From: Bacteroidota bacterium
Lineage (GTDB): Bacteria; Bacteroidota; Bacteroidia; Palsa-965
Length of the DNA stretch: 64,000 nucleotides
Assembly: GCA_006218065.1 (NCBI GenBank)
Contig: VBWE01000012.1
Location: 135,616 to 199,615, forward strand
Reading direction: 5' to 3'
In this document: one piece after another, positions 24,241-62,884 of the stretch
How the letters are laid out: each line of letters opens with the position of its first letter
Position numbering within the stretch: the first letter of the stretch is position 1
Made by a program: the position numbers and the translations under genes
Notes under the pieces: model-generated
Told to the model about the DNA's origin: nothing
Seen by the model: only the letters and a program-made list of their open reading frames with translations
Databases searched by the model: none

Positions 24241-24366
24241 AAAAAAAGCAAAGGGCAAAAGCAAAAAGGGAATATCCGTTTTTTGCAGACTCTTCTGCGA
24301 AGCAGTTCCCGGTTAATTGCCTTTTGCTTTTTGCCTTTTGCTTTTTGCCTTTTGCCTTTTGCTATT
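24241..24366 (+). repeat. intergenic foldback element E4 (TTTTGCY words)
   Basis: The right arm (24314-24366) is a run of 7-bp words TTTTGCC, TTTTGCT, TTTTGCC, TTTTGCT, TTTTGCC, TTTTGCC. The left arm (24241-24273) is the complementary AAGCAAAGGGCAAAAGC type. The ~40-bp core between them holds its own small stem, GCAGACTCTTCTGC. It lies between divergent genes. An in-frame extension of the acetyltransferase reading through the right arm gives a false hydrophobic N-terminus (FAFCFLPFAFC). Confidence 0.85.
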
Positions 24367-31169: not shown

Positions 31170-31200
31170 CAAAGATATTGATATTCTTTTGTTTTACAAA
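31170..31200 (-). promoter_or_regulatory. promoter of rpmE (-33 TTTG, -7 TATCTTTG)
   Basis: On the minus strand TTTG (31197-31200) is followed after 19 nt by TATCTTTG (31170-31177), matching both Bacteroidota boxes and their spacing. The transcript leader would be about 30 nt. Confidence 0.75.
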
Positions 31201-31208
31201 AAAAGTAG

Positions 31209-31420
31209 CGAGCCAAAGGGCAAAAAGCAAAGGGCAAAAGGCAATAACCTGTTGAAATAGTCTGTTTATACAGACTTAGGTACCTTAGTCGCTGCTAGTC
31301 GACGACTGAGTCGTCGACTAGCGAAGTCTCGTTTACGAAAGCTCGTTTAAAGCGAAGTCTCGTTTACGAAAGCTCGTTTAAACGTATTTTTTGCTTTTTG
31401 CCCTTTGCCTTTTCATTGTA
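31209..31420 (+). repeat. intergenic foldback element E5 (TTTTGCY words, complex core)
   Basis: Left arm 31211-31247 has words GGCAAAA, AGCAAAG, GGCAAAA; right arm 31385-31412 has TTTTGCT, TTTTGCC, CTTTGCC. It shares its words with E4. The core contains an 18-bp palindrome, AGTCTGT-TTAT-ACAGACT (31259-31276), a 29-bp near-perfect hairpin with 14-bp stem and one-base loop (31294-31322, centre at 31308), and a perfect 31-bp direct duplication (31321-31351 and 31352-31382) with GCGAAGTCTCG and ACGAAAGCTCG. It lies between divergent genes and fills most of the 354-bp gap. Confidence 0.88.
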
Positions 31421-31487: not shown

Positions 31488-32942
31488 ATGCTTCGCTTTC
31501 CGGCCTTTCTTTTACTGGTTTTCCTGTTATGTGCAGGTTTTTTCTCTTCATCCTGCCGGAAAGACCCGCTGGACGAGGATTCGGATGCACAACTGGTTTT
31601 CAGCCGCGACACGGTCCGTTTCGATACTGTTTTCACTACCGTCGGTTCCACCTACCGCCGGTTCAAAGCCTATAATTTCAGCAGCAAATCCGTCATGGTT
31701 TCCTCCATTCGCCTGGCGGGAGGCGCGAATTCACAGTTCCGTTTAAACGTGGACGGTGTTCCCGGTACCGATTTTACGGATATCAAGATCCGCGGCGGCG
31801 ACAGCCTCTGGATTTTTGCCGAGGTCACAGTTGATCCCACCAGCCAGAATTCGCCCATGCTGATTACCGATTCGGTGATTTTTGTAACCAACGGAAATAT
31901 CCAGCGTGTGCTGCTGGAGGCTGTGGGGCAAAACGTGTACCTCCACTACCCGACTTTTGTAACGACTTCCGGCGTGGCGTATTCGTATTTCAACTGTAAC
32001 GAAGTGTGGACCAACGACAAGCCGCACCTGATTTTCGGGCTGGCCATTATCCCGAGCAATTGCACGCTGACCATGCAGCCGGGCACCCGCGTTCACCTGC
32101 ACAACGGCGGAGTGCTCGCAGCCGATTCGAACGCCACGCTGATCGTCAACGGCGCGCACGGCAGTGAAGTGACCATCCAGGGCGACCGGCTGGAGCAGGA
32201 ATACAGCGAAGAACCCGGCCAGTGGGGCTATATCTGGCTTTCAGCCAACAGCGTGAACAATTCCATCAACTGGGCGATCATTAGAAACGGCACGATCGGG
32301 ATTTTGTCCGACAGCGTCGGCTCTTCCGCCAACCCGACGGTGAACATCGCCAATACCAAGATCCGCAACATGTCGCTCGCCGGGATATTCGGCCGCGACA
32401 CGTACATCCGCGGCAACAATTTACTCGTAACGAATTGTGCGCAATATGCGGCAGCGCTGGCCTACGGCGGAAAGTATTCGTTCACGCACTGTACGTTCGC
32501 CAATTACTGGAATATCGACAACAGGACCACGCCCGCGGTGATCATCAACAACTGGTACGAAGATGCGGACGGTAATCCCGTGAGGCGGAACCTGGACAGC
32601 GCGAATTTCCGGAACTGCATTATCCACGGCGACCTGGACAACGAATTTGAACCGGATTCGAATACTACAGGCGGGTACAATTTCCGCTACTACGTAACGA
32701 ATACGCTGCTGAAAACAACCATCAACGCTTCCGATCCTGTGCATTTTAATGTACCTACCAACGGGATCAATCAACTGGTGGCTTTTACGGATTTCGCCAA
32801 CCATGATTTTACGCTTGCGCCGGGTTCATGGGCACGCAACAAGGGGGATGCTATTCTCGCGCTGCCTTACCTGAACGACCTGAACAATCTCTCCCGCTTT
32901 GCGAGCGGCGCGCCGGATGCCGGGGCGTATGAGGGACAATAA
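31488..32942 (+). CDS. right-handed beta-helix repeat lipoprotein
   Basis: The 484-residue protein has a lipoprotein signal (MLRFPAFLLLVFLLCAG, lipid Cys in SSSCRKDP). The front part (30-150) looks like an Ig-type domain (FDTVFTTVGSTYRRFKAYN). The rest is a parallel beta-helix with short repeats such as GTIGILSDS, TKIRNMSLAGIFG and NNLLVTNCAQ. It ends PDAGAYEGQ, the usual close of such surface proteins. It probably sits on the cell surface or outer membrane and binds or cleaves polysaccharide, but no catalytic residues stand out. A longer frame starting at 31398 lies in the E5 element and is rejected. Confidence 0.85.
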   Translation: MLRFPAFLLLVFLLCAGFFSSSCRKDPLDEDSDAQLVFSRDTVRFDTVFTTVGSTYRRFKAYNFSSKSVMVSSIRLAGGANSQFRLNVDGVPGTDFTDIKIRGGDSLWIFAEVTVDPTSQNSPMLITDSVIFVTNGNIQRVLLEAVGQNVYLHYPTFVTTSGVAYSYFNCNEVWTNDKPHLIFGLAIIPSNCTLTMQPGTRVHLHNGGVLAADSNATLIVNGAHGSEVTIQGDRLEQEYSEEPGQWGYIWLSANSVNNSINWAIIRNGTIGILSDSVGSSANPTVNIANTKIRNMSLAGIFGRDTYIRGNNLLVTNCAQYAAALAYGGKYSFTHCTFANYWNIDNRTTPAVIINNWYEDADGNPVRRNLDSANFRNCIIHGDLDNEFEPDSNTTGGYNFRYYVTNTLLKTTINASDPVHFNVPTNGINQLVAFTDFANHDFTLAPGSWARNKGDAILALPYLNDLNNLSRFASGAPDAGAYEGQ

Positions 32943-36705: not shown

Positions 36706-36835
36706 GACTGTTTACCGTTTTCAGTTTACCGTTTACTGTTTACCGTTTTGTATAGTTGAAAAAGAAGTATGCAGATATTGACGACATCCTTGTAATACCA
36801 AAACGGTAAACGGTAAACTGAAAACGGTAAACAGT
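36706..36835 (+). repeat. intergenic foldback element E6 (TTTACNG words)
   Basis: Left arm 36706-36750 is a run of 7-bp words, TTTACCG, TTTTCAG, TTTACCG, TTTACTG, TTTACCG. Right arm 36799-36835 is its complement; the outer 31 bp pair without mismatch, and the left arm has one extra word. The core (36749-36798) contains GTTGAAAAAGAAGTATGC and GATATTGACGACATCC and is nearly identical to that of E7. The ATPase gene ends 3 bp before and the bshA promoter starts 16 bp after. Confidence 0.93.
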
Positions 36836-36850
36836 CCCTGAAATAAACCC

Positions 36851-43671: not shown

Positions 43672-43704
43672 CATACTTACGGTGCGCTTCGCAAGTAATC
43701 TTAT

Positions 43705-43909
43705 ACAGATATGAGATGTGAGACTTGAGATTTGAGATATGAGACGATTGTGTTTCGCAGGTCTCGGCTGCCGCTCGACCTGACAAGAACGTTTCATTTG
43801 TCCTCGGCTGCCCCGCCTCCCAAAGTTGTACGGCGGGCAGGCGCTCGACCTGACGAATATTGGTGGTTCGCAGGTTTCTCATGTCTCAAATCTCATATCT
43901 CATATCTGT
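43705..43909 (+). repeat. intergenic foldback element E9 (TGAGAYN words)
   Basis: Left arm 43705-43744 is a run of 7-bp words ATGAGAT, GTGAGAC, TTGAGAT, TTGAGAT, ATGAGAC after ACAGAT. Right arm 43877-43909 is the complement with one word fewer. The ~130-bp core holds GGTCTCGGCTGCC and GCTCGACCTGAC, then a second partial copy (CCTCGGCTGCC to GCTCGACCTGAC) with a GC hairpin CCCCGCC/GGCGGG between. The core is related to those of E10 and E11. Together with promoter sequence it fills the 306-bp gap before dapB. Confidence 0.9.
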
Positions 43910-43963
43910 AAAACAGTTCGTTAAAAATCTGAAAAACAGAATCCATAATCCCGAAAGCCGCGT

Positions 43964-47528: not shown

Positions 47529-47650
47529 CTGTTTACCGTTTACTGTTTACCGTTTACCGTTCTGTGTAGTTGAAGAAGAAGTATACAGATATTGACGACA
47601 TCCTTGTAATATCAAAACGGTAAACGGGGAACGGTAAACGGGGAACCAGT
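47529..47650 (+). repeat. intergenic foldback element E7 (TTTACNG words)
   Basis: The left arm from 47529 is TTTACCG, TTTACTG, TTTACCG, TTTACCG. The right arm 47614-47650 is CGGTAAA, CGGGGAA, CGGTAAA, CGGGGAA, an exact 14-bp double. The core (about 47560-47613) contains GTTGAAGAAGAAGTATAC and GATATTGACGACATCC. Across 68 bp including inner arm bases it differs from E6 at five positions, all transitions. It begins right after the lepB stop. Confidence 0.92.
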
Positions 47651-53619: not shown

Positions 53620-55800
53620 ATGAAAAAATTTATACTCGCTACAGCATTCATATTCGGTATGATTGGCCTGGATGCACAATCTGTTACAGTACTGGTCGGT
53701 TCGTCTCCTTTCCAGGACAGTCTTTGGACCGTTGATACCACCACACTGCAGATCAAACGCCGCCTCAGCCCTACGCCTTCTTCGGGCGGAACCATTACCG
53801 GGATGACGGCGCTGACCAAGGATCCTTCCAACGGAGATCTTTATATTGTCTGCAAACAATCGGCAACAACGGGCCGTACGCTGGGCAAACTCAATTTGCT
53901 GACCGGTGTCGTTACTATTATCGGCAACCTCGGCGATAACTTTTCCTCGCTCACTTTCACTTCCAATGCACGGCTTTTCGGAGCAACAGGCGACGGGGCG
54001 GCTGTTCCGGAAGCACTCTATTCCATTGATAAAACCAATGCCACAAAAACCCTGATCAAAAACATGGGAAGCGGCGCTGACGGTGAAGTCATCTGCGCCA
54101 ACCCGGACGACAATAACATGCTTTATCATTGGTCGGGCAACGGAACCGTTGTTTTTGAAAAATTCGATACCCTTACCGGGCCATATACTCCTACTAATAT
54201 TCCCATCATCGGGACCACCAACGGCGAAACATTCGGCGCTGTTTATATGGGCAACAATAAATTCTGGATCAGCAACATCAGTTCTACCTTCAACAGGATA
54301 AACGCCAACGGTACCTGGGGCGCCCAGTTCGGCAGTAACCCGGACGATCTGCGCGGCCTGGCTTTCATGACCTGCTCACGCGCAATCACCGGAAACGCTT
54401 CTTTCTGCACCGGCGGCAGTACCTTGCTTACCCACGGTTCATCTACAGCCGGCGCAACATACCAATGGTTTCTGAACGGCGCGTCCATTGTTGGCGCCAC
54501 TACTCAAACGTACACAGCTACTGCTGCAGGTCATTACAACTGCCTGGTTTCCGACGAATGCACCAGCAACGACAGCTCCGGTGTCGGCATCAACGTAATA
54601 GTTAATCCGCTGCCGGTTGTTTCGGTTTCAGCCACGGCAAGCAGTTTCTGCGCAGGCGATTCCACGCAGGTAGCTGCCAACGCACCTTCGGGAACGTATC
54701 AGTGGTACCAGGACGGCGTGCTCATTCCCGGTGCAACGACTTCGCCTTTCACCATCACCAGCGGCGGCGTGTTCAACATGATCTGCACGGATGTGAACGG
54801 ATGCAGCGACTCTTCGGCTACCGGTGTAACCGTAACGGTTAATCCGCTGCCAGTCGTTTCGGTTTCGGCTACGGCAAGCAGTTTCTGCGCAGGCGATTCT
54901 ACACAAGTGGCAGCCAACGCACCTTCGGGAACGTATCAGTGGTACCAGGACGGTGTGCTCATTCCCGGCGCAACAACTTCACCTTTCACCATCACCAGCG
55001 GCGGCGTATTCAACATGATCTGCACGGATGTGAATGGATGCAGCGATTCCTCAGCAACCGGGACAACGGTAATCGTTAACCCGCTGCCGGTTGTCGATCT
55101 CGGTAACGATACAACGGTTTGCGGAAGCCTGGTACTCGATGCAGGCAACGCCGGCTCAACATACCTCTGGAGCGACAGCACGACTGCGCAAACACTTACC
55201 GTTTCCGCTACCGGTAATTATTCCGTAACGGTAACCGATACCAACGGCTGCGCCAGTTCGGCTTCGATCGGTTATACTGCCGGGGTGATTCCTTCCGTAA
55301 CACTGTTCGGTGACACTTCGCAGTGCGGCGGTTCGATCGTACTCGACGCAGGCAACGCAGGATCGACATACCTGTGGATCGACAGCACGACTGCGCAGAC
55401 ACTCACCGTTTCCACATCGGGCATTTACTCCGTTGTGGTTACCAGCGCCGACGGCTGCACCGATTCGGATACGGTAAACGTAACGATCAACACGCCTCCT
55501 ACCGTTTCCGCTTCCGCTGCCAGCACAACGGTTTGCCAGGATGATGCCAACGTAACGCTCACCGGTACTCCTGCAGGCGGCACATTCTCCGGACCCGGTG
55601 TAACCGGAAACTCTTTTGATCCTTCTATCGGAACAGGAACACAGGCGCTTACATATTCGTTCACGGACGGAAACGGATGCTCGGGCTCTGCCGGTATCAA
55701 CATCACTGTAAATGCCTGCGTAGGTATTATCGAACAGCAAAACATCAGTACGGTGAGCATTTACCCGAAGAAGCTGAAAAAGCGACGATCAATATCGTGA
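53620..55800 (+). CDS. secreted Ig-like/PKD repeat protein, frameshifted before its T9SS domain
   Basis: The 726-codon frame opens with a signal (MKKFILATAFIFGMIGLDAQ). The first ~250 residues look like a propeller or DUF4394-like domain (SVTVLVGSSPFQDSLWTVDT). Then come Ig-like/PKD units: two near-identical 79-residue repeats (54601-54837 and 54838-55074, with SFCAGDSTQVAANAPSGTYQ), and further units with GNDTTVCGSLVLDAG. At VSIYP, where a sorting domain should read YPNP, the frame turns to KKLKKRRSIS and stops. The intact sorting domain continues in the next frame (to 55946). This is a 4-nt-type deletion or a sequencing error. Confidence 0.88.
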   Translation: MKKFILATAFIFGMIGLDAQSVTVLVGSSPFQDSLWTVDTTTLQIKRRLSPTPSSGGTITGMTALTKDPSNGDLYIVCKQSATTGRTLGKLNLLTGVVTIIGNLGDNFSSLTFTSNARLFGATGDGAAVPEALYSIDKTNATKTLIKNMGSGADGEVICANPDDNNMLYHWSGNGTVVFEKFDTLTGPYTPTNIPIIGTTNGETFGAVYMGNNKFWISNISSTFNRINANGTWGAQFGSNPDDLRGLAFMTCSRAITGNASFCTGGSTLLTHGSSTAGATYQWFLNGASIVGATTQTYTATAAGHYNCLVSDECTSNDSSGVGINVIVNPLPVVSVSATASSFCAGDSTQVAANAPSGTYQWYQDGVLIPGATTSPFTITSGGVFNMICTDVNGCSDSSATGVTVTVNPLPVVSVSATASSFCAGDSTQVAANAPSGTYQWYQDGVLIPGATTSPFTITSGGVFNMICTDVNGCSDSSATGTTVIVNPLPVVDLGNDTTVCGSLVLDAGNAGSTYLWSDSTTAQTLTVSATGNYSVTVTDTNGCASSASIGYTAGVIPSVTLFGDTSQCGGSIVLDAGNAGSTYLWIDSTTAQTLTVSTSGIYSVVVTSADGCTDSDTVNVTINTPPTVSASAASTTVCQDDANVTLTGTPAGGTFSGPGVTGNSFDPSIGTGTQALTYSFTDGNGCSGSAGINITVNACVGIIEQQNISTVSIYPKKLKKRRSIS
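54601..55074 (+). repeat. 237-bp in-frame tandem duplication
   Basis: Two consecutive 237-bp units (54601-54837, 54838-55074) encode near-identical Ig-like modules of 79 residues; a third, diverged unit begins at 55075. Third-position changes show the duplication is not brand-new, or that it has been partly homogenised. Confidence 0.92.
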
Positions 55801-61549: not shown

Positions 61550-61576
61550 TGTATGGCATAAACGAAAGACTGTTTT

Positions 61577-61752
61577 CCGGGATATGAAATATGAGACTTG
61601 AGATGTGAGATTGCGTGGTGTACAGGTCTCGGCTACCCCGCCTCCTCCGCCCCAGGCGGATACGGCGGGCAGGTGTTCGACCTGACAAGTAAGCTAAGCC
61701 GTGTAAGTATAAACGGTTGTCTCTAATCTCAAGTCTCATATTTCATATCCGG
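61577..61752 (+). repeat. intergenic foldback element E10 (TGAGAYN words)
   Basis: Left arm 61577-61610 has CCGG, then 7-bp words GATATGA, AATATGA, GACTTGA, GATGTGA. Right arm 61720-61752 has TCTCTAA, TCTCAAG, TCTCATA, TTTCATA, then CCGG. The arms pair with one extra G. The core has GTGGTGTACAGGTCTCGGCT and CGACCTGACAAGTA, with an insert of about 40 bp (CCGCCTCC to GGCGGGCAGG) that E11 lacks and E9 has in another form. Confidence 0.92.
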
Positions 61753-61773
61753 AAATAAAATTGCACAATCCCC

Positions 61774-62736: not shown

Positions 62737-62884
62737 CAGATATGAGATGTGAGATTTGAGACAACCGTTTATGCTTACACGTTCCGGGTACTTGTCAGGT
62801 CGAGCGGTAGCCGAGACCTGTACACCACGCAATCTCAAGTCTCAAATCCAAGTCTCATGTCTCAAATCTCATGTCTCACATCTG
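62737..62884 (-). repeat. intergenic foldback element E11 (TGAGAYN words, inverted core)
   Basis: Left arm 62737-62762 (CAGATATGAGATGTGAGATT type) faces a longer right arm 62831-62884 of 7-bp words TCTCAAG, TCTCAAA, TCTCATG, TCTCAAA, TCTCATG, TCTCACA. Read on the minus strand its core has TTGCGTGGTGTACAGGTCTC, then GGCTACCGCTCGACCTGAC, then AAACGGTTGTCTC, matching E10 outside the ~40-bp insert. So E10 and E11 are inverted copies flanking the transporter gene. Confidence 0.92.

Follow-up and report, generated by a model that had tools for sequence, protein, structure and literature searches.

The composite repeat element E5 in the window analysed here (the window being the whole stretch of DNA under study, 64,000 nucleotides long) belongs to a dispersed repeat, of which it represents a single copy nested in a second type of repeat, and is not a site at which three different symmetric structures are independently stacked, as a preliminary description of the sequence had it. 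I read E5 as the work of two repeat systems, with a probability of about 0.68 for the reading as a whole: the inner part would be a REP-like copy spread by a RAYT transposase, and the outer part a pair of heptamer arms of the IVP type. In such a scheme the core palindrome is predicted to fold on single-stranded DNA, where the RAYT, to judge from what is characteristic of its HUH/Tyr family, would recognise and nick it, and a core copy would enter an intergenic site, as the shorter gaps in related genomes suggest. The central position of the core within the arms points to an entry at the tip of a pre-existing hairpin, the arms being the putative ends of IVP-type stem-loop elements without their gene, and the 31-bp duplication may represent a later slip.

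The structures that make up E5 are listed with their neighbours in Table 1. The hairpin reported earlier is exact, with a perfect 14-bp stem and a one-base loop; this 29-bp structure contains the longest perfect stem in the 64-kb window at loops of up to 4 nt (9-11 in 8 Markov resamples). The 31-bp tandem duplication is exact as well, either at the originally noted 31321-31382 or, equally, 1 bp earlier at 31320-31381. The heptamer arms that were said to enclose the symmetric structures were recovered too, with 95% complementarity over 21 nt between 31211-31231 and 31390-31410 in an inverted-repeat search, and with 88% complementarity between 31222-31247 and 31388-31413; their period is 7. The 18-bp palindrome does exist at its reported place, but it is imperfect, one of its pairs being mismatched. 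When folded as single-stranded DNA, the stretch 31209-31413 reaches -51.5 kcal/mol; shuffled versions average -24.7 (z -8.4), and none of 200 of them folds as well. A tRNA search of the window found none, and in a MITE test at E5 the arms were present, while no target site duplication was apparent by eye.

Table 1. Positions, in window coordinates, of the parts of E5 and of the adjoining genes
Feature	Position	Strand	Remarks
rpmE, type B 50S ribosomal protein L31	30876-31133	-	NCBIfam NF002462, 130.6 bits
Putative rpmE promoter, Bacteroidetes-type TTTG N19 TATCTTTG	31170-31200	-	outside E5
Composite repeat element E5	about 31209-31420		between rpmE and lipoprotein gene
Left outer arm, tandem GCAAANN heptamers	31211-31247	.	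inverted repeat; lag-7 match 0.66 over 31209-31247
Imperfect 18-bp palindrome AGTCTGTTTATACAGACT, within left flank of core	31259-31276	.	16/18; L002 and L008 have similar sequences
Second imperfect 18-bp palindrome GACTTAGGTACCTTAGTC	31273-31290	.	position computed; symmetry judged by eye
Core hairpin (REP-like palindrome with a stem of 14 bp and a loop of 1 nt, G)	31294-31322	.	fold -14.5 kcal/mol
First copy of the 31-bp right flank unit	31320-31350	+	once only in copy L007
Second copy of the right flank unit (tandem duplication, apparently private)	31351-31381	+	
Right outer arm of tandem heptamers, in inverse orientation to left arm	31388-31413	.	lag-7 match 0.71 over 31383-31413
Putative lipoprotein, signal peptide, ATG at 31488	31488-32942	+	

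The core of E5 is a dispersed palindrome that is private to the genome of the window. A search with E5 gave 51 matches in this genome and 0 in 29 other genomes, the core region gave 68 HSPs in the window's genome, and the exact hairpin occurs there 21 times. The core was found in 0 of 11 family relatives, and a relaxed core pattern had 0 matches in public genome and viral contig collections, which may omit the window's own genome. I inspected 41 distinct core places. In 35 of them the alignment with the 29-bp core has no more than 7 mismatches; the counts on core copies refer to these 35, as the remaining six (L008, L028, L051, L054, L058 and L059) exceed 7 mismatches in the 29-mer alignment, and one further variant copy (L134) was found during the arm search. 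The stem is perfect over its 14 bp in 17 of the 35 copies, and at 6 of the 14 stem pairs both sides are changed with the pairing kept, so that it is the palindrome and not its sequence that has been conserved. On both sides of the core, the 35 copies share the outward flank consensus RRAGWCT. According to a rough gene caller, 40 of the 41 places lie outside predicted genes, the sole case inside a gene having been obtained with fallback coordinates, and the gaps concerned are tandem in 20 cases, convergent in 11 and divergent in 9. The preliminary description had argued that a long perfect hairpin with a tiny loop is unstable in bacteria, so that its retention points to recent origin or selection; the instability argument is not supported, since the genome has 14-bp stems of this kind at no fewer than 35 places, 17 of them perfect. 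Palindromes of such short length are usually tolerated.

Since many variant copies are spread across many contigs, it is very unlikely that the hairpin is an assembly error. The 31-bp duplication, which seems private to E5, the copy L007 having the unit once, could be such an error. Two other copies have peculiarities of their own: L020 has an array of four to five units, and in L012 the last part of a neighbouring gene, at its 3' end, is repeated beyond the core as a perfect inverted copy of 15 bp, the two being about equidistant from the core (57 and 61 bp).

REPs are palindromes of 20-40 bp in many extragenic copies, and the 29-bp core is a sequence of this kind. The GT[AG]G foot tetranucleotide is absent from the core hairpin, and in place of the REPIN layout of two inverted REPs with a spacer, the copies inspected have one central palindrome per element. 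The core is best read as a REP family of an atypical kind. Because of the CGTC and GTCG words in the stem I considered an identity with the CGTC-type REPs, and rejected it, as the available part of the source describes those REPs with stems of 8-9 bp, loops of 4-5 nt and an unpaired tag (PMC3733652).

The window's genome has two Y1 transposase genes, P0001 and P0002, and the former (185 aa, contig C24, L072:14515-15072) is the only RAYT gene of this genome above the NCBIfam cut-off, with 105.9 bits for NF047646 REP_Tyr_transpos at a cut-off of 80. P0002 (contig C76) was rejected as the RAYT of the core, as it reaches 63 of the 80 bits and has no adjoining core. The stop codon of P0001 falls within a core copy, in the unit that flanks the hairpin on its left, and the hairpin starts 20 bp past the stop. 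The core is present only 3' of this gene, with no inverted partner upstream, and no inverted arms or TIR were detected around the gene (arm score 8.0, shuffle maximum 11.0); a PDB sequence search with P0001 gave no match. As the chance of finding a core copy beside any given gene is estimated at about 2%, given some 41 intergenic copies, the link between the RAYT and the core leans on two other genomes, G006 and G179, which were chosen because hairpins had been seen there. In G006, a member of the same family, the 3' flank of the RAYT gene carries different palindromes, which are repeated within G006 and have 0 copies in G000 or G009, and in G179 a third palindrome in the RAYT flank is repeated within G179, with 0 copies in G000. 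The rpmE flank in G006, used as a control, matches its own place only.

Among RAYT homologues I tested 26 of 29 loci, leaving out three with short flanks. A stem of at least 8 within 150 nt is present at 9 of the 26 loci, which is supportive, though not universal; the hairpins are located downstream in 8 and upstream in 4 of the 26, and control windows gave 1-3 of 26. The gene is surrounded by inverted repeats of its own in 20 of the 26 homologues, and TIR-flanked RAYTs have been reported before, as the available part of PMC3733652 indicates. Taken on the sequence evidence, it is most likely that the P0001 RAYT spread the core.

The core and its putative RAYT resemble subclass 2.6 of TnpA_REP, which equals group 5 of Bertels (as far as the available text of PMC6006769 describes it), in that a short multicopy intergenic palindrome stands beside a RAYT gene, has copies elsewhere in the genome and lacks the GT[AG]G foot. 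In P0001 the motifs DHLH and YIHNNP are 81 residues apart; the latter fits the YIH[QN]NP of that subclass, and the distance is close to its HuH-Y distance of about 82. However, DHLH departs from its NH[LIV]H, the W of P0001 is followed by D (WD) instead of the WQ given there, the core stem is long and perfect where the structures of subclass 2.6 are described as weak in the same available text (PMC6006769), and the core is confined to a single side of the gene and nested in heptamer arms. Unlike classic RAYTs, which are associated with two REPs, P0001 has the core only downstream. With this core, one more genome-private REP family is added to the Bacteroidota-like RAYT systems, a branch for which the cognate structures are so far described in outline only.

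Alternatively, the core could be a MITE- or REP-like repeat that was spread by another enzyme, either a lost one or another transposase, with its position next to the RAYT gene being coincidental. The restriction of the core to one side of that gene, the lack of a TIR there and the missing GT[AG]G foot would agree with this, and so would the CGTC-type REPs, reported without a dedicated transposase in the available part of PMC3733652. However, I consider it unlikely, as the core hairpin begins 20 bp past the RAYT stop codon, and as the pattern is repeated in two other genomes with unrelated palindromes while the control flank is negative. It is quite improbable that the palindromes are both generated and maintained solely by slippage during replication together with template switching (quasipalindrome correction), in the absence of a mobile system. 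Such events could be responsible for the private tandem duplication in E5, for the unit array in L020 and for the arm in L012 that mirrors the 3' end of the neighbouring gene; however, one and the same 29-mer is present in tens of unrelated intergenic sites, and copying in trans is needed to bring it there.

The heptamer arms are a module independent of the core. The arm pattern of 15 bases, AAGCAAARRGCAAAA, has 52 matches in the window's genome and 2 in 11 relatives. Loci were obtained for 28 of the 52 matches and merged to 20 places, which hold the RAYT core in 6 cases (four recognised by pattern and two by the coordinates of core-region matches), a TCACAC palindrome in 5, and a short loop only in another 5; of the rest, one holds another hairpin (24242-24346), two are the ends of a single IVP element and one is a lone arm. 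The core, in turn, is found within arms of several different sequences, and 14 of the 35 core copies have arms that score at least 13 and above the shuffle maximum. It is located within 0.06 of the arm middle in 10 of 13 armed copies, a test that left out the armed copy L050, or in 10 of 14 when this off-centre copy (79/164) is counted. In the window, a lag of 7 was the best in 14 of the 15 arm stretches tested. A second palindrome (CGTCACACTGAGCG...AAGTGTG) lies inside E5-type heptamer arms at L133, L142, L148, L151 and L153. At 24242-24346, arms of the E5 family surround an inner GCTTCGC hairpin that replaces the core, and the left half of this element is common to the core copies L005, L006 and L025.

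A search with PF05635 found four genes of the IVP/S23 four-helix-bundle type (IVP genes) in the window's genome, one of them with an internal stop. Inverted arms enclose all four, with four different arm sequences and scores of 21-40 against shuffle maxima of 11.5-13.5, and these copies (contigs C21, C35, C37 and C41) seem to occupy gaps between protein genes and to be outside rRNA. At L158 (1483-1818), the IVP gene has an internal TGA and looks like a pseudogene that has retained its arms. The contig of the window itself (C20) had no IVP match in the PF05635 search, and E5 has arms without an IVP gene. By eye, the arms of E5 belong to the sequence family of the C21 IVP arms, and the arm pattern matched both ends of the C21 element. 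I infer that the arms of E5 are of IVP-type origin, with the gene either lost or never present.

Inverted heptamer arms are enriched at IVP genes also in other genomes. Of at least 319 confirmed IVP-relative loci, 79 were listed, the taxa of these listed loci being Bacteroidota, Ignavibacteria, Chloroflexi and others, and 73 were tested, six having been left out for their short flanks. Among the matches listed, the arm score is at least 16 at 40 of the 73 loci and above the locus's own shuffle maximum at 58, while a score of at least 16 is reached by none of the 145 control intervals taken at a distance of 1000 bp, which are likely largely coding, and by 0 of 10 rpmE flanks. The mean lag-7 base match is 0.391 in the 146 flanks of the IVP matches listed versus 0.268 in 52 flanks of RAYT homologues, and among the same 146 flanks the best lag is 7 in 61 and 14 in 26. 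Noncoding windows with a 7-nt period, again among the matches listed, amount to 48 of 154 near IVP genes versus 18 of 172 far from them; as the period is present in these 18 far windows too, heptamer arrays are enriched at IVP genes and not confined to them.

A search of the available literature revealed no gene associated with intergenic heptamer repeats apart from the 23S intervening sequence (IVS) of Coxiella burnetii. According to the available part of PMC4990558, this IVS has an inverted stem of 28 bp whose loop carries the S23 ORF, together with tandem heptamers that vary in number by strain, a layout that fits a link between IVP genes and heptamers. The IVP elements of the window's genome share with it the inverted arms, the long stem, the IVP gene in the loop and the adjacent heptamers, and the putative placement of elements at a hairpin tip is similar to that of the IVS, which is described there as replacing a tetraloop (PMC4990558). 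E5 differs from the IVS so described in its location between rpmE and a lipoprotein gene, in its arms without a gene, and in that these arms are degenerate heptamer arrays. Tandem repeats of 7 nt in intergenic regions have been described as TAACTGA in Beggiatoaceae, Cyanobacteria and Bacteroidetes (PMC4679880), and as GGGAATC in Xanthomonas, sometimes in inverted pairs, and GGGGA(C/T)T in Nostoc (PMC4692102). The arms found here are similar to these, and differ from them by their measured association with IVP genes, no partner gene being proposed in the available text of either source (PMC4679880, PMC4692102).

Intergenic heptamer repeats are known from several phyla without a mechanism, and in this respect the arms of E5 matter more than its core. 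The small dispersed repeats of Nostoc, which Elhai in 2008 reportedly described as sitting in heptamer arrays, would be similar in the placement of a small palindromic repeat in such arrays, and differ in phylum and sequence; they are not known to have a RAYT or IVP link. The association of IVP/S23 genes with heptamer arms offers a concrete and testable candidate, which connects these repeats with the long-standing question of the 23S rRNA intervening sequences and suggests a rule, namely insertion at hairpin tips. An arm module that encloses a small IVP gene in many bacteria may help to explain a repeat type that has long been unexplained. As a tentative generalisation, to which I give somewhat less than even odds, free-standing IVP/S23 genes could be the coding part at the centre of heptamer-armed stem-loops, which would form a widespread class with many unexplained intergenic heptamer repeats, those of the window included, as its gene-less members; the hairpin tips could then serve as landing sites for palindromic elements such as RAYT-driven REPs, giving rise to nested palindromes.

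The location of E5 fits an insertion between rpmE and the lipoprotein gene, as judged from the corresponding gaps in related genomes. The true start of rpmE was taken as 31133, as the family match begins at residue 14. The gene is present in 11 of 12 family genomes, the window's own included, and the lipoprotein homologue adjoins it in 10 of 10 relatives. The preliminary description had proposed to compare this gap in sister genomes: from start to start the gap measures 354 bp here versus 141, 132, 150 and 133 bp in four syntenic relatives, and since 354 less 212 gives 142, similar to these four gaps, an insertion of about 212 bp fits. The other six relatives have gaps of 231, 245 (with an N run) and 448 bp, two of about 1000 bp and one that is ambiguous, and the compact empty site is present in only 4 of the 10. 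A recent origin, which had been offered as one explanation for the retention of the hairpin, is supported by the shorter gap in four relatives, by the absence of the core from 11 relatives and by the apparently private duplication.

The putative rpmE promoter, which matches what I take to be the Bacteroidetes promoter consensus, is the only promoter-like match in the 64-kb window, where 1.64 are expected by chance, and E5 begins 11 bp upstream of it. That E5 has been selected as a regulatory element or RNA structure in the promoter region of rpmE and the lipoprotein gene, in line with the earlier suggestion of a regulator of both genes, is hardly credible in spite of its strong fold and its position between divergent genes, as the element is also present in tandem and convergent gaps elsewhere, as relatives keep the gene pair without E5, which starts upstream of the promoter-like match, and as no Rfam family in the window reached its gathering score. 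For rpmE and the lipoprotein gene, the insertion is probably without consequence.

Several other repeats are present in the window. GTTTACC-type heptamer arms with a similar inner sequence (GTTGAARAAGAAGTATRCAGATATTGACGACATCCTTGTAATA) are located at 36706-36836 and 47531-47646, and TGAGATN-type heptamer arms at 43701-43913, 61575-61755 and 62737-62884, a lag of 7 being the best in all of the latter. An array of CGCAATGG/CGCAATGAC units with a period of about 68 bp extends over 2114-2387, and a 237-bp tandem repeat in 2.1 copies over 54594-55088.
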